From Futiania mangrovi (GTDB taxonomy: Bacteria; Pseudomonadota; Alphaproteobacteria; Futianiales; Futianiaceae): DNA of 64,000 nucleotides. Below the pieces are notes generated by a model. That model was not told the origin of the DNA, made no database searches, and saw nothing but the letters and a program-made list of their open reading frames with translations. Shown here in pieces: positions 4,220 to 42,277 of this stretch; within the stretch, counting starts at the first letter, position 1; every line of letters begins with the position of its first letter. Location: NCBI RefSeq assembly GCF_024158125.1, contig NZ_JAMZFT010000001.1, positions 1,240,001 through 1,304,000 on the forward strand. The letters run 5' to 3'. The translations under genes were made by a program, and so were the position numbers.

Positions 4220-4376
4220 CCGCTGTCTGCGCCCACGGCAGCGGCGGGAGCGTTAACCATACCAAATTGAATTAACTATATTTTCTGGTCCGAATCGGAG
4301 CAGGTGCCCCTTGCGGATCGTTTCATTTCGATTAAACTTTGATCGAATTCGGGACGGGGAAACGTGACGGCCAGCC

Positions 4377-11774: not shown

Positions 11775-11830
11775 GCTGTGAGGCGATCTTGGCCCACATG
11801 CAATCGTGCACATCCCGCGGAGGACTACCC

Positions 11831-12310
11831 ATGCGCCGACTGTTGCCCGTCATCGGCATTCTCGCCAGCCTGGCCGCTGCGCCGGCCTTTGCCAACCGGA
11901 TCGAAGTTCAGAACATTCCCGAAAAGGAAGTCGTCACCACCAACGCGCAGGGCGAGAAGGTCGTCACCCGCGTGCCGGCGACGCGGGTCGTGCCGGGTGA
12001 GGAAGTGATCTACACGATCCGCTACAAGAACGCCGGCGACAAGGCAGCCGAGAACATCGTCGTCACCAGCGCGGTGCCCGAGCAGATGACCTACCGCGAC
12101 GGTACCGCGGAAGGTGCCGGCGCGACGGTGCTGTTCTCCGTCGACGACGGCCGCACCTTCGGGCCATGGAACACGCTGTTCGTCAAGGGCCCGGACGGCA
12201 AGGACCGCCAGGCCACCGCGGAGGATTACACCCACATCCGGTTCATCCTGACCACGCCGGTTCCGGCGGAGACGGCAGGCGCGGTTAGCTACCGGGCCGT
12301 ATTGAACTAG
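11831..12310 (+). CDS. Exported DUF11-like protein (single domain)
   Basis: This 159-residue protein begins with a clear Sec signal peptide (MRRLLPVIGILASLAAAP, cleavage after AFA). The mature part is one beta-sandwich of DUF11 type: TRVVPGEEVIYTIRYKNAG introduces the domain, and AENIVVTSAVPEQMTY is its typical second half. DUF11 domains are Ig-like repeats found in cell-surface proteins. The ATG at 11831 has GGAGG seven bases upstream. It is the first of three exported proteins with this domain type. A strong terminator at 12374 separates it from the next, so it is probably its own transcription unit. Confidence 0.85.
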   Translation: MRRLLPVIGILASLAAAPAFANRIEVQNIPEKEVVTTNAQGEKVVTRVPATRVVPGEEVIYTIRYKNAGDKAAENIVVTSAVPEQMTYRDGTAEGAGATVLFSVDDGRTFGPWNTLFVKGPDGKDRQATAEDYTHIRFILTTPVPAETAGAVSYRAVLN

Positions 12311-12373
12311 ACAGACCGCTGGTCCGGCGCCGCACGCGGCCTGCCCGGCGACATCGCTGGCCACCTGGATCTC

Positions 12374-12413
12374 AAGGGGCGCGACCGGTTTTCCGGCCGC
12401 GCCCCTTGCTTTT
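12374..12413 (+). terminator. Rho-independent terminator after the first DUF11-like gene
   Basis: AAGGGGCGCG, an unpaired A and CCGG pair with CCGG, an unpaired C and CGCGCCCCTT across a TTTT loop, followed by GCTTTT. The stem is about 14 bp. It lies 63 bases past the stop codon. Beyond it, 12414-12605 is AT-richer leader DNA for the next gene, with no clear promoter match. Confidence 0.8.
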
Positions 12414-12605
12414 GTCCAGGCATGCCCGGCCAAGGCGTGCGGGCAGCCACCGGTCCGCGTGGCGCCTATACAACCTGACACATGTATGCACCTTTGAGTT
12501 GCAATTTTAGCCAAAAATAGCGCGTCCTTGAAACGAATCCCACGGAAGTAACGCTCTGTTTAAACTGCTCCCATACACCTGTGTGTCCCTGGAGGGCACT
12601 TAGAG

Positions 12606-13721
12606 GTGTGGAACATGTGCGAGTTGAGTTTTTCGGCCTTCTCCAAGGTCGCGTGCCGTGGGGCCCTTGCGGGCGGTCTCGGCATGGCGGGCATCCTGCT
12701 CGCCGCGTCTCCTGCGCTGGCTATCGGAACCGAAGCGGGCACAACCGTTTCGAACACGGTGTCGGTCGCCTACAACGTCGGCGGTGTCGCCCAGACGGCA
12801 GCCAACGACACGGCTGAGTTCGTCGTCGACCGGAAGATCGACGTTACCGTCGCGACCGCCGGCACCAACCAGGTGATCCCCGGCCAGACCGCGGAGGTCC
12901 TGGCCTACACGATCACCAACACCGGCAACGGCGAGCAAGGCTACGACATCGACGTCGCAGTCGCCGGCGGGGGCACGGCGATCGGCCTGACGCTCGGTGC
13001 AGGCGCAAGCCCGGCATCGGGCGAGTACGTCGTCTACGTCGACGCCAACGACAACGGCGTCTTCGATCCGGGCACCGACACGCAGTATGCGCCTTCGTCG
13101 GGCTCGACCACGCTGGCCTTCAACCTCGGCCACGCCACCAACACGACGAACTACGCGGCGTCGACGACCGTGTTCATCGTCGCGAACATCCCCGCCTCGG
13201 CAGCTGACGGCGCGATCGACACCTTCACGGTTTCGGCCACGACGCTCGACGTCGGGACGACCACGGTGACGACGGAGAGCGCCACGAACGACCTCGCCAC
13301 CGAGGAAACCGTGTTCGCCGACGGCGCCGGCACGGCGGATGCGGCCACCGACGGTGTCCACTCCAACGAGGGCGTCTTCGAGGTGGTGACCGCCACGCTC
13401 GTCGTCTCCAAGACGATGCAGGTGATCAGCGAAAGCCCCTCGAACTGCGTGACCGACGCCGTCGTGGCGAGCCAGTACGCCCTGCCGGGCGCCTGCATCG
13501 AGTACACGATCACGGTGACGAACAACGGCACCGCGAACGCCGAGAACGTGGCCCTGACCGACGTGCTTCCCACGGAAGTGACGTTCTCGGGCTTCCACAG
13601 CTCGACCTCGACGTTCGACACCGGCCCGTCGGAAGCTGCCGGGACCGTCTCTGCGACGGCGAACAGCATCGCGTCGGGCGGCGGCAGCGTCCAATTGGTG
13701 ATCCGGGCGCTGATCAACTGA
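12606..13721 (+). CDS. Exported DUF11 domain protein, 371 residues
   Basis: A signal peptide (hydrophobic GGLGMAGILLAASPALA) is followed by an acidic Thr/Ala/Gly-rich beta protein nearly free of Lys and Arg. The first half starts GTTVSNTVSVAYNVGG; the C-terminal ~100 residues are a typical DUF11 repeat (ACIEYTITVTNNGTANAENV, then LTDVLPTEVTFSG). VYVDANDNGVFDPGTD near residue 140 resembles a calcium-binding turn. The start is either GTG 12606 (GGAGGG nine bases upstream) or ATG 12615 (GAGGTG six bases upstream). It precedes the giant DUF11 protein on the same strand, and a cell-surface or secreted role is inferred. There is no recognisable sorting signal. Confidence 0.82.
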   Translation: MWNMCELSFSAFSKVACRGALAGGLGMAGILLAASPALAIGTEAGTTVSNTVSVAYNVGGVAQTAANDTAEFVVDRKIDVTVATAGTNQVIPGQTAEVLAYTITNTGNGEQGYDIDVAVAGGGTAIGLTLGAGASPASGEYVVYVDANDNGVFDPGTDTQYAPSSGSTTLAFNLGHATNTTNYAASTTVFIVANIPASAADGAIDTFTVSATTLDVGTTTVTTESATNDLATEETVFADGAGTADAATDGVHSNEGVFEVVTATLVVSKTMQVISESPSNCVTDAVVASQYALPGACIEYTITVTNNGTANAENVALTDVLPTEVTFSGFHSSTSTFDTGPSEAAGTVSATANSIASGGGSVQLVIRALIN

Positions 13722-13752
13722 CGCCAGGCGCACTCCTGACCAACTGAAACAG

Positions 13753-13782
13753 GGGTGCGGGGAGGCAAGCCTTCCCGCACCC
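13753..13782 (+). other. Strong hairpin between the two DUF11 genes
   Basis: GGGTGCGGGGAGGC pairs with GCCTTCCCGCACCC over a two-base centre (about 13 bp with one G-T). No T tract follows, so it may be an mRNA-stabilising or attenuating hairpin that lowers expression of the downstream giant gene, and not a full terminator. No other gene lies in 13722-13900. Confidence 0.55.
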
Positions 13783-13900
13783 GCCTTGCGATGCAGCCCT
13801 TGCGGTGCACGGCGCGGCAAAGACCGCCGTGTGCGCCAACGGGAGAGGCATGCCCTGAGAGCCGCTTCGGCGGCACCACGCAGCGAGGCGCGATTTCCAA

Positions 13901-16900
13901 ATGAAGCTTGCGGGCAACATCGGTGCGCTGATGGCGCGTGCCGCCCGGGCCATGGCCCGGGATTTCGCCTCGCGCGCGCCTGCGGGCACGCACGCGAAGG
14001 CGCCCGCACGCGCATGCCCCGCGCGGGCCCGCTTGTCCCGCCTGCTTCCGGTCCTGGCCTGCATCCTGCCGATCGCCCTGCCGGCCTGGACGGCCGCCGC
14101 GCCGGCGCTGCCGGGAACACGGGTCGAGAACACCGCCCGGGTGGACTTCGCGATCCGGGGCGAGGCGCAGAGCCAGGCCTCCAACACCGTCACCTTCACG
14201 GTGGTGCCGCCGCGCGCAGCGGCACGGATGACGCTGATGCGGCACAATCCGGCTGGCACGCCGGTCACCCTCGTGAACAGCAGCTACGCGACGGCGTTCG
14301 GGGGGACCGCTCCGACGGCGCCGTCCGTTCCGCTCGCAGGCGCCCCGGCCCTTCCCGCCACGCTCCCGCTGACGCCGACGAACGCGCTGTTCTCCGGCGA
14401 CCTGCTCTTCATCCTCGTCGAGGACCCGAGCCGCAACCTCGATCCGGCCGGCACCGACACGGTACGCGTTGCGCTGAACGCGCGCGGCAGCGGTGACACC
14501 GAAACGCTGGAGCTTTACGAGACCGGCCCCGGAACCGGCGTCTTCGCGGGCTGGATCCCGGTTGCCGACGATCCCCTTGGCACCGGTTTCGACGGCACGC
14601 TCTCGAGCCCTCCGCACGGCACGGTCTCGGCAACCTACATCGATCCCTTCGACACGGCAGACATGGTCGAGGCTCTGGTGCTGGTCGATCCGTTCGGCCG
14701 GGTCTTCGACAGCGCCACGGGCCAGCTTCTGGACGGCGTGACGGTCCGCCTCGTCGACGCGATCACGGGCGCACCTGCCGCCGTGTTCGGCCAGGATGGC
14801 GTCTCGGCCTACCCCTCGACGGTCGTCACCGGCAGCGGCGCGACGGATGCGGGTGGCCAAACCTATGTATTCCCGCCGGGCGAGTACCTGTTCCCGCTGG
14901 TCGCGCCGGGCACCTACCGGCTCGAGGTCACGCCGGGTCCAGACCATGTGGGCCCCTCGACGGTGCCCGCCCCAGCACTTCAGCTTCTGCCCGGGGCACC
15001 CTACCAGATCGTTCCCGGATCGCGTGGCGATCCCTTCTCCATCGTGGCCGGCCCGGCACTCGAGATCGATATCCCCCTCGACCCCCGCCGCGCCCTCGTC
15101 CTCGCCAAGTCCGCTAGTGCCGAGGCCGCCGATGCGGGGGACTTCCTGTCCTACACCCTGCGGCTCACCAACAGCGACGCCGCGGACGCGGTGAATGTCG
15201 AGATCGCCGACACGCTTCCCTTCGGGCTTCGCTACCAGCACGGCTCGCTCGCGATCAACGGCACCCGGACCGGCAACCCGGCGATCGGGCCGGACGGACG
15301 CACGCTGACCGTCTCGCTGGCGCTGCTGCCTGCGGGCAACACGGTCGAGATCAGCTATGTGGCCGAGGTGACGGGCGCGGCACGCCCGGGAATGGCCATC
15401 AACCGGGCGACTGCGGCAGCCGACGCCGGGTTCCGCTCGAACGTCGCGACGGCGGCCGTGCGGATCCGCGACGACCTGTTCCGCTCGCAGGCCATCATCG
15501 CCGGGCGCGTCATGATCGATGCCTGCACGCCCGGCGATGCATGGCCGCGCGAGGTCGTGGCGACAGAAGGTCTCGGCGGGGTGCGGCTCTATCTCGAGGA
15601 CGGCCGCCACGTCACGACCGACCGCGATGGCCTCTACCACCTGGAGAACGTCGGCCCCGGCACCCACGTCCTCCAACTGGATACTGCAAGCCTCCCGGAT
15701 GGATATGAAGTCGTTTTTTGCGAGGAAAATTCGCGCTTTGCGGGCACACCCTACAGTCAGTTCATAGATGCGGCGGGCGGCAGTGTGTGGCGCGCGAACT
15801 TCCATGTCCGCCGCACGGCGCGCACGCCTCCGTCCGGGGCCGACAGCCGTCTGGCCGCGCTGATGGCCAAGACGGGGGCGGCGGCGCCCACCGCATCCGG
15901 CGCTGCACCCGCCGCCGCGCCGGCAAGGTCCGCAGGCGCGAAGTTGCATCCTGCACTGCGTCCGGACTGGATCGAGGGGCAGCCGGCAACGCCGGAATGG
16001 GTCTATCCCCCGGATGGCGAGACGCCGGCCATCCCCTCCCTCGACCTCGGCATCCGGCATGCCGCCGGCGACAAGGTGGCACTCACGCTCAACGGCACGC
16101 CTGTGCCGCGGCTGAATTTCGTCGAAACCGTCCGTGCCCGGTCGAGCACTGCGGCCATCAGCCATTGGCGGGGTATCGACCTCGTCGAGGGCAGGAACAC
16201 AGTCATCGCTGTCGTCACCGGGCCTGACGGCACGGAGAAGATACGTATCGAGCGCCAGGTTCACTATGTGACTAAAGCCGCGCAAGCCCATGTCCTGATT
16301 GATCAATCCACGCTTGCAGCGGATGGCAGGACGGCGCCGGAACTGGTCGTCCGGATCACCGACCGTGCCGGGCGGCCGGTTCATGCCGGGCGGCTGATCG
16401 AGGTGGCGGTACTGCCGCCCTTCGCCATGCAGCGCGACGACGATCCGCTTGCCCGCATCCCGCGCGCCCCGGCGCAAGGGGCCAGCGCGGCCCGCGTGGC
16501 CGTGGGGACCGACGGGCTCGCGCGTATCCGGCTGCAGCCGACGCTCGCGACGGGCGAGGCCACGGTTCGCCTGACGCTGGACGGCGGCCAGAAGGATCTG
16601 AAGGCGTGGATCCGCCCGCAGGCCCGCGACTGGATCGTCGTCGGCCTCGCCGAAGGCACCCTCGCCCACACCACGGTGCGCGGGAACATGACCTCGCTCG
16701 CCGCGCTGGGCGGCCGCCAGGGCATGTCCGCGGACGGGCGGATCGCCTTCTTTGCCAAGGGCATGATCAAGGGCGAATGGCTGCTGACCGTCGCGCTCGA
16801 CTCAGACAAGCCCCGGCGCAAGGCGGAGCGCGCGCTGTTCGGAGAGATCGACCCGAACGCCTATTACACCGTCTATGGCGACGCCTCGGAGGAAGGCGCC

Positions 16901-19102
16901 GAGGCGGAGAGCAGTTATCCGTTGTTCCTCAAGCTCGAGCGTGAGCAGTTCTACGCCCTGTTCGGCGACTACGACACCGGACTGGGCGCGACGGAACTCG
17001 CCAGATTCGAGCGGCGGCTTTCCGGCCTGAAGACAGCGTATGAGGACGAGAACGTCTCGCTCGTCCTGTTCGGGGCCGAGACCCGCCAGCGGTTCCTCAA
17101 GGACGAGATCCGCGCGAACGGAACCTGGGGTCCGTTCCGCCTCTCGGAGCGGCCGATCGTGCGCAACAGCGAGAGCGTGACCGTGGAGACCCGCGACCGG
17201 TTCCGCGCCGACACCGTGGTCGCGCGGCAGACGCTCACGCGCCACATCGACTATGACATCGACTATGACACGGGCGAGATACGCCTGCGCCGGCCCGTCC
17301 CGGCAACGGACGTCCAGTTCAATCCCAACATCATTATTGCGTCCTACGAATCGGATGGGACTGGAAAAAGCGGTCTTGTGTATGGCGGACGCGCAGCCGT
17401 CCGGCTGCTCGACGGATGGATCGAGGTCGGTGCGAGCTACCTGCACGAGGATGCCACCGCCAATGGCGCGGGACGCACCAGCGACCTGGGCGGAATCGAC
17501 GTGACGGTGAACCTGGCGGAGGGCACGCAGCTGCGCGCCGAGGCCGCACGCTCCCGCGCGACGGGAGGCGGCCCCGCCAGCAACGGCGCTGCCTACCTGG
17601 CGGAAATCGCGCACGTGGATGCCGACGTCGCAGCACGCGCGTATGCCCGGCAGGAAGATGCGGGCTTCGGCCTGGGCCAGCAGACGGCCGCGACGGGCGG
17701 CAAGCGGCGTGTCGGGGCCGAGGCGAGCTATATCCTCGCCCGGCGCACCGATGCCGAGGACACGGTCCTTCCCGGCGTGACGCGGATCGAGAGCCAGGCC
17801 TATCGCGAGGAAGACCTGGCCACGGGCGCATCGCGCGGCGTCGTCGAGGCGACGCTGGCGCAGACCGGGCAGGGTTATGCGCTGAGCCTCGGGCTGCGCA
17901 GCCTGGCGGAAGGGCTGGCGGGGGGCCTGGACCGGCGCACGACCCAGTTGCTCGCGTCGGGCGAGATCGCCCTGTTCGAGCGGCAGCTGACCTTGCGCGC
18001 CGCCCATGAGCAGACGGTCGCAGGCGACGAGAGCGGCGACTTCCCGACCCGCACCCTGATCGGCGCGGACTGGCGCATCGCGCCAGGTGTCGTGCTCAGC
18101 GCCTCGCAGGAGATCCGGTTCGGGGCCGAGTTCGAAACGCTCAACACCAGTCTCGGCCTGACCGCCGAGCCCTGGGAGGGAGGGCGCATCTTCCTCGGCG
18201 GCGACCGGGCGTTCGGCGGCGCAGGCACCCGGCTGGGCGCACGGGCCGGGCTCGGCCAGACGATCGCGCTGGACGAGAACTGGTCGCTGTCGGGCGGCCT
18301 CGAACGCCAGCAGATCCTCGAGCGCAGCGGCGATGCCTTCGCCCTGCTCGACTTCGCACCCGACCAGCCGGCGGAGAGCTTCACCGTTGCGCACGCCGGG
18401 GTGTCCTTCCGCAACGATGACTGGACCATGTCGACCCGCGTCGAAGTGCGCGACGGGGAGCGGGAGCGGACCTATGGGCTTTCCGGCGCGATCGTCGGCG
18501 AGGTGAGCGAGGCGCTGACCGTCTCGGGCCTCGTCAACGCCACCTATGCGGACCGTGCGGGCGCGCCGGACACGACGCGCACGGACCTGCGCCTAGGCCT
18601 TGCGTACCGGCCGCTCGACGAAGGACCGATCCTGCTCGACCGCCTCGACCTCGTGCACGAGAAGGACGCAGCCGGCATCCGCCAGTTCAAGGTGGTGAAC
18701 AATGCCGCGCTCAACCTCCGCCTCGGGCGGCGCCTGGAGGCAGCGCTGAGCCACGGTGCGAAATATGTCGAGACGGACGTCCTGGGAGCGACCTATTCGG
18801 GCTTCACGCATTATGCGGGCGGCGAGGTGCGCTTCGACCTGACGCGCCGTATCGATCTCGGGGCACAGGCGGCTGCGCTACACAGTGTCAACGCCGACAC
18901 GGTCGACTATTCGGCCGGCGTGTCCGTGGGCGTGCAGGTTTTCGACAATGCGTGGGTGAGCCTCGGCTACAACGTGCTCGGCTTCCGCGACGAGGATTTC
19001 GCCGGCGCCGAGACGCGCGCCGAAGGGCCCTATGTCCGCTTCCGGCTGAAGCTGGACCAGCACAGCCTTGGGGGGCTGCTCGACAGATTCCTGGGGGAGT
19101 GA
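13901..19102 (+). CDS. Giant DUF11 surface protein with probable C-terminal outer-membrane beta-barrel
   Basis: This 1733-residue protein has a basic N-terminus with a late hydrophobic export segment (about residues 46-66, RLLPVLACILPIALPAW). A beta-rich region follows to ~390, then a DUF11 repeat at ~396-523 (ALVLAKSASAEAADAGDFLS), an SdrD-B/carboxypeptidase-regulatory-like domain at ~530-640 (GVRLYLEDGRHVTTDRDGLY), a Pro/Ala linker, Ig- or invasin-like domains at ~680-890, and from ~909 to the end a long run of alternating beta strands rich in acidic, Tyr and Gly residues. The last part resembles an outer-membrane barrel, but lacks the usual C-terminal aromatic residue (it ends LLDRFLGE). 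Likely role: cell-surface anchoring or display together with the two smaller DUF11 proteins. Function is unproven. Confidence 0.85.
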   Translation: MKLAGNIGALMARAARAMARDFASRAPAGTHAKAPARACPARARLSRLLPVLACILPIALPAWTAAAPALPGTRVENTARVDFAIRGEAQSQASNTVTFTVVPPRAAARMTLMRHNPAGTPVTLVNSSYATAFGGTAPTAPSVPLAGAPALPATLPLTPTNALFSGDLLFILVEDPSRNLDPAGTDTVRVALNARGSGDTETLELYETGPGTGVFAGWIPVADDPLGTGFDGTLSSPPHGTVSATYIDPFDTADMVEALVLVDPFGRVFDSATGQLLDGVTVRLVDAITGAPAAVFGQDGVSAYPSTVVTGSGATDAGGQTYVFPPGEYLFPLVAPGTYRLEVTPGPDHVGPSTVPAPALQLLPGAPYQIVPGSRGDPFSIVAGPALEIDIPLDPRRALVLAKSASAEAADAGDFLSYTLRLTNSDAADAVNVEIADTLPFGLRYQHGSLAINGTRTGNPAIGPDGRTLTVSLALLPAGNTVEISYVAEVTGAARPGMAINRATAAADAGFRSNVATAAVRIRDDLFRSQAIIAGRVMIDACTPGDAWPREVVATEGLGGVRLYLEDGRHVTTDRDGLYHLENVGPGTHVLQLDTASLPDGYEVVFCEENSRFAGTPYSQFIDAAGGSVWRANFHVRRTARTPPSGADSRLAALMAKTGAAAPTASGAAPAAAPARSAGAKLHPALRPDWIEGQPATPEWVYPPDGETPAIPSLDLGIRHAAGDKVALTLNGTPVPRLNFVETVRARSSTAAISHWRGIDLVEGRNTVIAVVTGPDGTEKIRIERQVHYVTKAAQAHVLIDQSTLAADGRTAPELVVRITDRAGRPVHAGRLIEVAVLPPFAMQRDDDPLARIPRAPAQGASAARVAVGTDGLARIRLQPTLATGEATVRLTLDGGQKDLKAWIRPQARDWIVVGLAEGTLAHTTVRGNMTSLAALGGRQGMSADGRIAFFAKGMIKGEWLLTVALDSDKPRRKAERALFGEIDPNAYYTVYGDASEEGAEAESSYPLFLKLEREQFYALFGDYDTGLGATELARFERRLSGLKTAYEDENVSLVLFGAETRQRFLKDEIRANGTWGPFRLSERPIVRNSESVTVETRDRFRADTVVARQTLTRHIDYDIDYDTGEIRLRRPVPATDVQFNPNIIIASYESDGTGKSGLVYGGRAAVRLLDGWIEVGASYLHEDATANGAGRTSDLGGIDVTVNLAEGTQLRAEAARSRATGGGPASNGAAYLAEIAHVDADVAARAYARQEDAGFGLGQQTAATGGKRRVGAEASYILARRTDAEDTVLPGVTRIESQAYREEDLATGASRGVVEATLAQTGQGYALSLGLRSLAEGLAGGLDRRTTQLLASGEIALFERQLTLRAAHEQTVAGDESGDFPTRTLIGADWRIAPGVVLSASQEIRFGAEFETLNTSLGLTAEPWEGGRIFLGGDRAFGGAGTRLGARAGLGQTIALDENWSLSGGLERQQILERSGDAFALLDFAPDQPAESFTVAHAGVSFRNDDWTMSTRVEVRDGERERTYGLSGAIVGEVSEALTVSGLVNATYADRAGAPDTTRTDLRLGLAYRPLDEGPILLDRLDLVHEKDAAGIRQFKVVNNAALNLRLGRRLEAALSHGAKYVETDVLGATYSGFTHYAGGEVRFDLTRRIDLGAQAAALHSVNADTVDYSAGVSVGVQVFDNAWVSLGYNVLGFRDEDFAGAETRAEGPYVRFRLKLDQHSLGGLLDRFLGE

Positions 19103-26218: not shown

Positions 26219-26347
26219 CGCCGGCCCGCCCGGCTTCTACCCGGACGCCTGCGGCAGGAAATTATCCCCGCGGGCGACGGAACCGGTATGCTGTGCGCGT
26301 GTTACGGGAACACCCCGGTGAGGCACCGCGCGAAAGGGAGACCGCCC

Positions 26348-27688
26348 ATGCAACCGATCGCCGCCATCCGTTCCGCGACCGTGCCGGTCGCCGCCGCGCT
26401 GCTGGCGCTGCTGCTGGCCGCCTGCGTTCCGACCGCGCGCCCCGGCACGCCTTTGCCCCAGCCGCAGCCGCGCGGTTTCGTGATCGAGGGTGAGCTTGGC
26501 TACCGGGAGCGTATCGCCCTTCCGCCGGGCGTGACGGCGCTCGTCACGCTGACGGAGGAGCGCACCGGCCGCGTTGTCGCGGAACGGCGCTGGCGTCCAG
26601 GCCGGCAGGTTCCCCTGCCCTTCGCGCTGGAGATCGACCCGGCACGTCTCGACCGCGATGCCTTCTACGTGCTCGAAGGCGGCATCCTCGAGAACGGAGG
26701 CGCGATCTGGATCACCGACGAGATCCCGGTGGAGTTCGGCCGCGCAGCCACCCGCGGGCGCATCGACGTCGGCACGCTGATGATGGAGCGCCCGCTTCCC
26801 GGCGGCTTCGCGAGCCTGATGCGCTGCGGCGCGGACGAGGTGCGCATCGCCTCGGGCCGCGACCGGCTTCTGATGACGCACCGCAACCGCACGTACGAGA
26901 TGGTGCGTGTGCGCAGCGGCTCGGGCGCGCGCTACGAGGCCGTGAACGATCCCTCCACGACCTATTGGAGCAAGGGCGAGCGCGCGACCGTTGCCATCCG
27001 CGGGCGCACCCTGCCCGAATGCACGATCGTCCGCGACGACGCACAAGCCTCCGTGAGCGGCCCCGCGCTGCCCTTCCGCGCACAAGGCAACGAGCCGGGG
27101 TGGACGCTCGACATCACCCGGCGCGGCATGACCTATTCAGGCGACTACGGCCAGACGCGCGTCTCGACCCCGCTGCCGGAGCCTGTGCGGATTCGCGGCG
27201 GCGTGCGCTACACCGCGCGGACGGAGGCGGGCACCCTCTCCGTCAGCATCCTGGAGCGCGCCTGCAACGACAGCATGAGCGGCATGCCCCACCCCTACTT
27301 CGTGCGCGTCGCAGTGAACGGCCGCTGGCACGACGGCTGCGGAGGACGCCCGATGGACCTTCTGACCGGCGACTGGATCGTGACCGAGCTTGCCGGGCGC
27401 GGCGTGTCGGCGAGTGCGCAGGGCACCATCAGCTTCGGCACGGACGGCCGCGTCTCGGGCCGCGCCTTCTGCAACCGCTACAATGGCAACTACCGCCTGA
27501 CGGGCGAGACGCTGACCTTCTCCCGCCTCGCGGCGACGAAGATGGCCTGCCCGCCCGCGCAGATGGATCTCGAATCCCGCTTCTTCGGCCTACTGGGAGA
27601 GGTGCGCCGCTTCGGCATCGCCAGCAATGGCGCGCTGGTCCTGCATACCGACGGCGGCGGGCGCATCGTGGCGCGCCGCGCGGACTGA
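26348..27688 (+). CDS. Multidomain lipoprotein: YbaY-like + MliC-like + COG3650-like + META
   Basis: This 446-residue lipoprotein has a signal peptide with lipobox LLAAC (Cys26 acylated). Four modules follow: a YbaY-like domain at ~38-137 (LPPGVTALVTLTEERTGRVV), an MliC-like lysozyme-inhibitor-type domain at ~158-225 (YEAVNDPSTTYWSKGERATV), a COG3650-like domain at ~235-335 (FRAQGNEPGWTLDITRRG, later ERACNDSMSG), and a META/HslJ-like domain at ~338-440 (FCNRYNGNYRLTGETLTFS). All four occur in envelope stress and heat-shock-linked lipoproteins. A periplasmic outer-membrane-anchored protective protein is likely. Having all four in one chain is uncommon. Module boundaries are read by eye. Confidence 0.82.
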   Translation: MQPIAAIRSATVPVAAALLALLLAACVPTARPGTPLPQPQPRGFVIEGELGYRERIALPPGVTALVTLTEERTGRVVAERRWRPGRQVPLPFALEIDPARLDRDAFYVLEGGILENGGAIWITDEIPVEFGRAATRGRIDVGTLMMERPLPGGFASLMRCGADEVRIASGRDRLLMTHRNRTYEMVRVRSGSGARYEAVNDPSTTYWSKGERATVAIRGRTLPECTIVRDDAQASVSGPALPFRAQGNEPGWTLDITRRGMTYSGDYGQTRVSTPLPEPVRIRGGVRYTARTEAGTLSVSILERACNDSMSGMPHPYFVRVAVNGRWHDGCGGRPMDLLTGDWIVTELAGRGVSASAQGTISFGTDGRVSGRAFCNRYNGNYRLTGETLTFSRLAATKMACPPAQMDLESRFFGLLGEVRRFGIASNGALVLHTDGGGRIVARRAD

Positions 27689-36531: not shown

Positions 36532-36545
36532 GCACTGGGGAGTGC
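36532..36545 (+). promoter_or_regulatory. Hairpin with Shine-Dalgarno in the loop, copy 1
   Basis: GCACTGGGGAGTGC forms a perfect 5-bp stem with GGGG as loop, three bases before the ATG at 36549. The GGGGAG that should pair with 16S rRNA is exposed in the loop and partly held by the stem. The same 14 bases recur before the paralog at 37061. Control by structure or by a GGA-binding protein is possible. Confidence 0.5.
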
Positions 36546-36548
36546 ATC

Positions 36549-36965
36549 ATGAGCGGTATCGACAACGATGGGGCCGCCCCCGCCGACTGGCAAGGTGTGT
36601 CCGGGGATGCGCCGGAGGCGTTCGGCAACGAGCTGACGATTGCGCAGGAAACCGGCAATGCCGGCTGCCGCCCGATGACCTGGGGCGAGCGTGCGCAGAG
36701 CGGTGCACTGCACGGCGGCGGGCTTGCGGGTTCCGTCGGCCTTGGCGTCGGCGGGGCGATGGTGATGCAGAACGCCCTGCCGGGACTGATCGGCGGCGGA
36801 CTGGGCGACGACGACGGCGGCGGACGTAACGCGCTTCAGAACACCTCTGCAGTGCTGTTCGGCACTGGCCTCGTCATGGTGGGCCAGGGCGTGAGATACG
36901 GCGTGGAGAACGCCCGCGCCCTGCGCAACGAGACCTTCAATCCGGACACGCAGGTCTGCCAATAG
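36549..36965 (+). CDS. Hypothetical MSGID-family protein, copy A
   Basis: I do not recognise this 138-residue protein. It begins MSGIDNDGAAPADWQGVSGD, followed by PEAFGNELT and GCRPMT; the middle is a Gly-rich hydrophobic part (LAGSVGLGVGGAMVMQNALP and VLFGTGLVMVGQGV) with an acidic GDDDGGG loop, and it ends LRNETFNPDTQVCQ. Cys40 and the penultimate Cys137 are both kept in copy B. There is no signal peptide; the glycine-zipper-like middle could insert in a membrane. It is divergent from gyrA and followed after 95 AT-rich bases by its paralog. Coding is well supported by that paralog. Confidence 0.78.
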   Translation: MSGIDNDGAAPADWQGVSGDAPEAFGNELTIAQETGNAGCRPMTWGERAQSGALHGGGLAGSVGLGVGGAMVMQNALPGLIGGGLGDDDGGGRNALQNTSAVLFGTGLVMVGQGVRYGVENARALRNETFNPDTQVCQ

Positions 36966-37043
36966 GTGATATTTGTATTTTAATTTCTACTTTGGATTGC
37001 ATTTACAGTCAGAATGAACAACATTCCCTAGCGTTAACTTAAA

Positions 37044-37057
37044 GCACTGGGGAGTGC
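37044..37057 (+). promoter_or_regulatory. Hairpin with Shine-Dalgarno in the loop, copy 2
   Basis: The same GCACTGGGGAGTGC stem-loop as at 36532, again three bases before the start codon. In all, 23 bases up to and including ATGAG are identical in the two copies, whereas the DNA further upstream is unrelated. Conservation of the leader beyond the ribosome-binding site itself points to function or to recent duplication. Confidence 0.5.
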
Positions 37058-37060
37058 ATC

Positions 37061-37483
37061 ATGAGTGGTATCGATACCGGCGGGGCCGTGCCCGCCGACT
37101 GGCAAAGCGCGTCCGGAGATGACCCGGAGGCGTTTGGCGGCGAGATGACTGTGGCGCAGGCACATGTCCATGACGGCGGCCTTGGCTGCCGGCCGATGAC
37201 GGCGCAGGAACAGGCCGTTGACCTGGCGGGACATGCCGGGAACATGGGAATCGGCTTGATCGAAAGCCAGGTGGGACAGGTCGTGACCGGCGTCGGCGCA
37301 ACCGTCTACATGGGCGGCGCGGCCGGTGGCGACGATCCCATGGCGCGCGGCACCCGCGATCTCGGCGCCGCGATGGTTTCCGGGGGTGTCGGCCTCATTA
37401 TCGACGGCGGGCAGCGTGTCGTGAACTCGGCAATCGACCTCCGCAACGGTGCCCTCAACCCGAACGCCCAGATCTGCGACTAG
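37061..37483 (+). CDS. Hypothetical MSGID-family protein, copy B
   Basis: This 140-residue protein is a paralog of the upstream gene. It shares MSGIDxxGAxPADWQ, SGDxPEAFGxE and GCRPMT at the N-terminus and LRNxxxNPxxQxC at the end, while the middle has diverged but remains Gly-rich and hydrophobic (MGIGLIESQVGQVVTGVGAT, AAMVSGGVGLIIDGGQ). Both cysteines (43 and 139) are kept. It has a HVHDGG insertion absent from copy A. A strong terminator follows, so the pair may be one unit. The function is unknown; a membrane-active peptide, a structural protein or an anti-phage component are all only guesses. Confidence 0.78.
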   Translation: MSGIDTGGAVPADWQSASGDDPEAFGGEMTVAQAHVHDGGLGCRPMTAQEQAVDLAGHAGNMGIGLIESQVGQVVTGVGATVYMGGAAGGDDPMARGTRDLGAAMVSGGVGLIIDGGQRVVNSAIDLRNGALNPNAQICD

Positions 37484-37511
37484 GCGGCCCGGTCCGTCGG
37501 CCGGCCGCACG

Positions 37512-37544
37512 AAAAAGGCGGCGCCCCGTGGGGTGCCGCCTTTT
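37512..37544. terminator. Bidirectional rho-independent terminator
   Basis: GGCGGCGCCCC (37517-37527) pairs with GGGGTGCCGCC (37530-37540), preceded by AAAAA and followed by TTTT, so it works on both strands. It separates copy B of the MSGID family from the convergent ssb gene. Confidence 0.85.
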
Positions 37545-37584
37545 CCGATTTCTCAGACTGGCCCCGTCCCGTCAGAACGGCCCG

Positions 37585-41255: not shown

Positions 41256-41341
41256 ACCACACGCGCTCTACAGCAGATTGTGTTGCAATATGGGACAAAA
41301 TGAGTTAACGTCCCAGTTAGCGACATAATGTGGAGGGCGCA

Positions 41342-42277
41342 ATGTACGACCTGCATTCCACTCAACCGGTGTTCGTCCCGATCCAGGCGGATGACTTGCC
41401 GGGTGCCTTCTCCCTCGACCCCGATGCGGCGGGGACGGGGGGCGCGACGTCGGCGGGCGGCGGGCTCCAGATCGCCTCGTCCGGCACCGCCGCAGGGGCA
41501 GGGCTCATCGCCGCGAACACCTCCCCACCTTTTGTGGACCAGGACATCGCGTTCCCCCCGGCCCTCAACCCGTCCGTCGACGCGATATTCGGTGCAGGCT
41601 ACACCGCCGGGCTTCCCGGCGGGACGGCTGGCCTGAGCTATGGGGACTATTTTCAACAATGGAAGCCTTCCACGGACTTCGGAACGGCGGGGCTGAACCA
41701 GGCGACAGGCCAGGCCGCCGCCTTCGTCAATCTCGATGCAATGCCGCAGCTTGCCCAGATCACCGGCCTGTCGGTCCAGCAAGCGACCGATCTCGCCGCC
41801 AGCAATGAGGTCGCGGCAAAGCTTGTCTATGGGGACCCGAACCTCCCGAACGATGACGTGACGGTGGAGGTCATCGCCGAGGCCGTCACCTGGCACGCGG
41901 GCAACACACAGTTCGACGGCCGGTATACGCCGGTCGGACTGAACAACATCATCATCGGCGCCTTCTCACCGAACGCCAACGCCGGATACCGGGAGTTCGC
42001 CGAGATCGCAATTCCCGCGCTCGGCCAGTATGCGCTGGACAACGGCCTCGGCGTCGGGACGGTGGAGGAACGCGGACAGGACTTCCTGCAGCTGCTGGCG
42101 GGGGCCGCAGTCATGCCGAACGGCCAGTACAACTCCTCCAACATGACGTGGGACAATCTGACCTCGTACGTCGAGAACCTGCAGGGTGTAGACGACGGCG
42201 AAGCCTTCGTCCGCGGCATGGGCCAGGCCCTGGGGGCTGCCTTTGCCCAGGCTGCGCAGCAGAGGATCGGGAACTGA
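41342..42277 (+). CDS. Hypothetical protein, 311 residues
   Basis: I do not recognise this protein. It has no signal peptide or membrane segment. The first ~90 residues are low-complexity (Gly, Ala, Thr, Pro, with GTGGATSAGGGLQIASSG); then comes an Ala/Asn/Gln-rich, mostly helical body (TGLSVQQATDLAASNEVAAK, VIAEAVTWHAGNTQFDG and AIPALGQYALDNGLGVG) and a helical end (ALGAAFAQAAQQRIGN). GGAGGG lies four bases before the ATG; GTG 41330 is a weaker alternative. The 86-base upstream gap is AT-rich. It sits between uvrA and trmFO with no functional link. A secreted or phage/GTA-like structural protein is only a guess. Confidence 0.75.
   Translation: MYDLHSTQPVFVPIQADDLPGAFSLDPDAAGTGGATSAGGGLQIASSGTAAGAGLIAANTSPPFVDQDIAFPPALNPSVDAIFGAGYTAGLPGGTAGLSYGDYFQQWKPSTDFGTAGLNQATGQAAAFVNLDAMPQLAQITGLSVQQATDLAASNEVAAKLVYGDPNLPNDDVTVEVIAEAVTWHAGNTQFDGRYTPVGLNNIIIGAFSPNANAGYREFAEIAIPALGQYALDNGLGVGTVEERGQDFLQLLAGAAVMPNGQYNSSNMTWDNLTSYVENLQGVDDGEAFVRGMGQALGAAFAQAAQQRIGN

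Follow-up and report, generated by a model that had tools for sequence, protein, structure and literature searches.

A constrained tandem pair of orphan small-protein genes between gyrA and ssb in Futiania mangrovii FT118

In Futiania mangrovii FT118, which was isolated from mangrove sediment and is the first representative of the order UBA8317/Futianiales in culture (PMC9927469), two adjacent small genes occupy the plus strand between the minus-strand genes gyrA and ssb. They raise the question of whether they encode a functional pair of proteins and, if so, of what kind. A first-pass annotation, made from the letters and their translations, had read them as paralogs with conserved ends and a variable, membrane-compatible middle, and had taken this as a sign of selection on the middle, as in toxins, bacteriocins or surface-exposed proteins. 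We examined this reading both in the window, i.e. the 64,000-nucleotide stretch of contig NZ_JAMZFT010000001.1 (positions 1,240,001 to 1,304,000) that contains the pair, and across wider sequence collections.

Locus, coding status and distribution

Beyond gyrA lie coaD and a cyclophilin gene, and beyond ssb lies uvrA (gene names of neighbors were read from translations where no family scan was run). The pair itself (Table 1) is paralogous by sequence comparison, much as first proposed: BLASTP aligns the two products at 41% identity (E 6e-26), PADWQ, PEAFG, GCRPMT and LRN...NP..Q.C are present in both, and two cysteines are conserved between them, namely C40/C43 and the penultimate C137/C139. 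In both genes the codon score is highest in the sense frame among all six, GC by codon position fits a coding pattern and the frame is free of stops, while the pairwise alignment of the pair is likewise best in the sense frame (240 versus at most 197 in the other frames). Antisense ORFs of 247 and 158 aa overlie the pair and look like shadows by codon score, frame alignment and dN/dS. As part of the overall reading that we tentatively set out below, the locus may be explained by the tandem duplication of a single small gene, specific to this lineage, after which both copies continued to encode protein.

Table 1. Features of the gyrA-ssb interval (coordinates in the window)
Feature	Coordinates	Strand	Properties
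Gene 1	36549..36965	+	138 aa, 13.7 kDa, pI 4.2, no lysine, C40 and C137
Gene 2	37061..37483	+	140 aa, 13.8 kDa, pI 4.2, no lysine, C43 and C139
Leader of gene 1, hairpin-capable (GCACT-GGGG-AGTGC), holding its ribosome-binding site	36532..36545	+	within a 23-nt stretch identical in both copies
Leader of gene 2, same hairpin and ribosome-binding site	37044..37057	+	
AT-rich spacer between the genes	36961..37040	+	by composition; possible promoter region of gene 2
GC-rich inverted repeat with A- and T-run flanks	37510..37547	.	18-nt arms, 89% complementary

The similarity of the two copies reaches 18 bases 5' of the start codon, giving a 23-nt identical stretch (AGCACTGGGGAGTGCATCATGAG) in which lie the ribosome-binding site and a short, perfectly paired hairpin (about -7 kcal/mol when folded in isolation). 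This hairpin may have a regulatory role. A whole-genome search allowing up to three mismatches found these two copies and no others, and its candidacy as a regulon motif was rejected for want of any copy elsewhere in the genome. The spacer between the genes is the lowest-GC run of 80 bases in the window (30% versus 68.6%) and could possibly serve as the promoter of gene 2; no sigma-70 match was found on the plus strand. Stretches below 42% GC otherwise occur in the window only near 4253-4350 and 12485-12564. Downstream, the inverted repeat is, judging from its sequence, likely a bidirectional terminator that separates gene 2 from the convergent ssb; a simple terminator scan did not flag it.

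Several other features of the genome were recorded in passing. A second, distant ssb-like gene (G000:C2:710579-710908) shows 35% identity to the ssb of the window. A 315-aa ORF (41330-42277) between uvrA and a GidA-family gene has no Pfam match and a low GC3 of 0.83. At 11789-19102 three consecutive plus-strand ORFs (173, 371 and 1733 aa), the latter two matching DUF11, suggest a surface or exported protein cluster, and a 466-aa protein with YscW-like, MliC-like and META domains is encoded at 26288-27688. Elsewhere (L062:879-18364), ORFs that, as read from their translations, resemble a PEP-CTERM/exopolysaccharide region lie beside an ORF of 1486 aa and the type I secretion adaptor of the genome.

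Taking a score above the curated cut-off (Pfam, NCBIfam) or a credible match as the criterion for family membership, we found no Pfam, NCBIfam, PHROGs or PADLOC match for either protein, nor any PDB chain by sequence, which agrees with the earlier view that the pair belongs to no known family. The nearest candidate, DUF7269 (PF23933), is matched weakly by residues 60-129 of protein 1 (14.3 bits, E 0.042), below its curated 29.1-bit cut-off and probably on composition, and protein 2 does not match it. No credible relatives were detected in genome sets drawn from the class (385 genomes), the phylum (398) and a neighboring order (40), together about 780 distinct genomes; matches at E about 0.002 per genome among the 385 class genomes were rejected as chance-level for that many genomes. 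Likewise, two scans of viral contigs and searches of plasmids and phages returned no relatives, nor did two genome-contig scans with exact patterns of 7-8 residues, which reach close relatives only. The genus, family and order are represented in the searched set by the FT118 genome alone, and hence the family of the pair may occur in uncultured Futianiales, of which PMC9927469 mentions nine genomes.

The interval between ssb and gyrA in other Alphaproteobacteria is either short or occupied by unrelated genes. Since some relatives keep the two genes close (about 300 bases apart in relative L027) and others carry unrelated genes there, the gap accepts insertions, and the pair might be a remnant of a phage or other mobile element. 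Against such an origin stand the lack of any PHROGs, phage or viral contig match, of tRNAs in the window, and of flanking repeats beyond the gene duplication itself, and we regard it as highly improbable. The window contains no RNA family either.

Conserved ends and a diverged middle

The contrast between conserved ends and a diverged middle proved correct: 68% of the N-terminal 47 residues and 50% of the last 14 are identical between the two proteins, as against 21% in the middle. When each region was shuffled separately (1000 shuffles each), no shuffle matched the real score for the N-terminal 47/50 residues (z = 25.6) or the last 18 residues (z = 10.0), whereas the gapped middle scored no better than shuffled sequence (z = 1.1; 135 of 1000). 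In an ungapped register anchored on the first cysteine, however, 16 of 72 middle positions are identical, and the score is above chance (P 0.0012). The middle is thus diverged, yet it has not been swapped for unrelated sequence.

Rates of substitution, computed in this cysteine-anchored register from the two sequences only, set the regions apart. For the N- and C-terminal parts together dN is 0.27 and dS 0.65, with a bootstrap median ratio of 0.41 (95% 0.20-0.78), and on this basis the ends are under purifying selection. For the middle dN is 1.25 and dS 1.13, giving a ratio of 1.11 (0.57-2.27) at saturated sites, so that it is compatible with either relaxed or diversifying change, two saturated sequences being unable to separate them. 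An initial gapped alignment of the middle, with dN/dS about 0.6, was superseded by the ungapped register, and positive selection on the middle was set aside as indistinguishable from saturation. Selection on the middle, as earlier proposed, is accordingly not established; its conserved hydropathy instead points to structural constraint combined with a loose constraint on sequence.

The hydropathy profiles of the two middles have correlation coefficients between 0.78 and 0.88 over window lengths of 7, 11 and 15, values that none of 5000 shuffles reached. The spacing between the two cysteines is also nearly the same, 97 in protein 1 and 96 in protein 2, and each protein has two hydrophobic peaks in corresponding positions (63 and 101 for protein 1, 64 and 103 for protein 2) around an acidic glycine loop. 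Together, the conserved hydropathy and cysteine spacing suggest a constrained fold of two segments, probably a hairpin of helices. Models built by AlphaFold from the two-sequence alignment agree broadly, making the middle helical and giving each cysteine segment short strands, but are of low confidence (pLDDT 45 and 39) and carry little weight. In membrane compatibility the middle is a marginal case: Kyte-Doolittle hydropathy averaged over 19 residues peaks at 1.33 and 1.12 in the two proteins, short of the 1.6 normally taken as the transmembrane threshold.

These results bear on the possibility that the pair arose by local duplication of a gene acquired horizontally and is now decaying or without function. 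The pair has no relatives in the searched collections, its GC3 values (0.79 and 0.82) are among the lowest in the window (median 0.89) and its spacer is AT-rich, all of which would be expected on such a view. The absence of homologs, which the first-pass annotation had named, together with absence of expression, as a sign of duplication without function, was indeed observed, but the constrained ends argue against that conclusion: even the upper bound of their dN/dS is below one at 0.78, neither frame contains a stop, and the ribosome-binding leader and hydropathy are conserved. We therefore consider a functionless duplication unlikely.

Comparison with bacteriocins

Class II microcins and class IIb two-peptide bacteriocins, taken here as a lead, have a glycine-rich hydrophobic core and a conserved N-terminal part, and some microcins have a cysteine near the C-terminus. 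The pair resembles them in all three respects, and differs in that it lacks a canonical double-glycine leader, a C39 exporter in the genome and a match to a family model. The C39 peptidase (PF03412) is absent from the 99.85% complete genome, whereas the same search found it in 8 of 14 control genomes.

A second comparison is offered by the contact-dependent glycine-zipper bacteriocins CdzC/CdzD (Cdz) of Caulobacter crescentus, for which Cdz-like criteria have been given as a length of 60-151 residues, type I secretion genes within 10 kb, a leader ending in G[G/A/S], a glycine zipper uninterrupted by proline or charge, and killing of neighbors with an immunity gene (PMC5380434). Like Cdz, the pair comprises two adjacent small glycine-rich proteins of an alphaproteobacterium, both within the length range. 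Unlike Cdz, it has no type I secretion genes within 10 kb by a Pfam scan of the neighbors and no adjacent immunity candidate was seen; the only clear type I adaptor in the genome lies about 65 kb away. As to a leader end, the two proteins differ: the sequence before the core reads ...TGNAGC in protein 1 and ...DGGLGC in protein 2, so that GG occurs at the matching place in protein 2 only. The longest Gly/Ala i+4 runs are no better than in shuffled sequences (P 0.30 for protein 1, 0.95 for protein 2), charged E68 and D115 fall inside the hydrophobic stretches of protein 2, and, as a further difference from Cdz, two cysteines bracket the core.

Were the pair a bacteriocin of two proteins (Cdz or class IIb type) that leaves the cell through a type I system and inserts into the membranes of its targets, this would account for the tandem related glycine-rich proteins with their conserved N-terminal part and diverged core, and the genome does hold a clear adaptor. 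Nevertheless, its distance, the missing C39 peptidase, the absence of a linked immunity-like gene, the lack of a G[GAS] end before the core of protein 1, zipper spacing no better than shuffled and the charged residues in the hydrophobic stretches of protein 2 make this reading improbable. We keep the pair out of the bacteriocin class on account of its lack of linked secretion genes, interrupted zippers, lack of a C39 peptidase and remote adaptor, even though its length fits and a bacteriocin-like action is conceivable; the earlier suggestion of a toxin or bacteriocin finds no supporting linked gene and has several tests against it.

A tentative hairpin model and its cytosolic alternative

The explanation that we tentatively place first is that the genes encode two hairpin proteins, specific to this lineage, that act together and are either exported or associated with the envelope; it is moderately supported as to architecture and weakly as to function. 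Each protein would begin with a conserved, hydrophilic and acidic N-terminal arm of ~38 residues, probably a targeting or partner-binding segment, followed by the first conserved cysteine. Next would come two hydrophobic segments rich in Gly, Ala and Val, probably helical and packed into a hairpin, with the acidic glycine loop between them, and a conserved C-terminal tail would end in Cys-X. At the base of this predicted hairpin, the two cysteines could form a disulfide that closes it, and such a bond would put the hairpin in the envelope or in the exterior, with export independent of a Sec signal. As homologous subunits, the two proteins are predicted to bind one another at or within a membrane. 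The data show paralogy, purifying selection on the ends, and conservation of hydropathy and cysteine spacing, and from these we infer the fold, disulfide, location, partnership and function. Against the model stand hydropathy below the usual transmembrane threshold, unreliable structure models and a comparison confined to two sequences. No signal peptide is apparent in either protein, so that an oxidizing location is unproven and the cysteines may instead be incidental, bind metal or be reduced.

Almost as likely is a role in the cytosol: here the arm would bind a cellular partner and the hairpin would be an oligomerization or membrane-tethering element, with the proteins not exported and their cysteines reduced. 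Neither protein carries a Sec or other recognizable export signal, both are strongly acidic and lysine-free with hydropathy short of the transmembrane threshold, and there is no exporter within about 10 kb, all of which favor the cytosol. The conserved cysteines at fixed spacing around the hydrophobic part, however, fit a disulfide more easily.

The tandem pair is real, constrained and orphan, and is of modest interest pending relatives or expression. Orphan families restricted to one lineage are many, and this one comes from the first organism of its order to be cultured (PMC9927469). With a middle that keeps its hydropathy and cysteine spacing at ~21% identity, it offers a small and testable example in which the fold is constrained although the sequence is not. 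It is a long shot that the pair constitutes a two-protein exported system of a new type, in which disulfide-clamped helical hairpins with no Sec signal or linked exporter would combine a fixed targeting arm with a freely varying membrane-active core within one bacterial order. If the proteins were exported and membrane-active, they would represent a new small-protein system.
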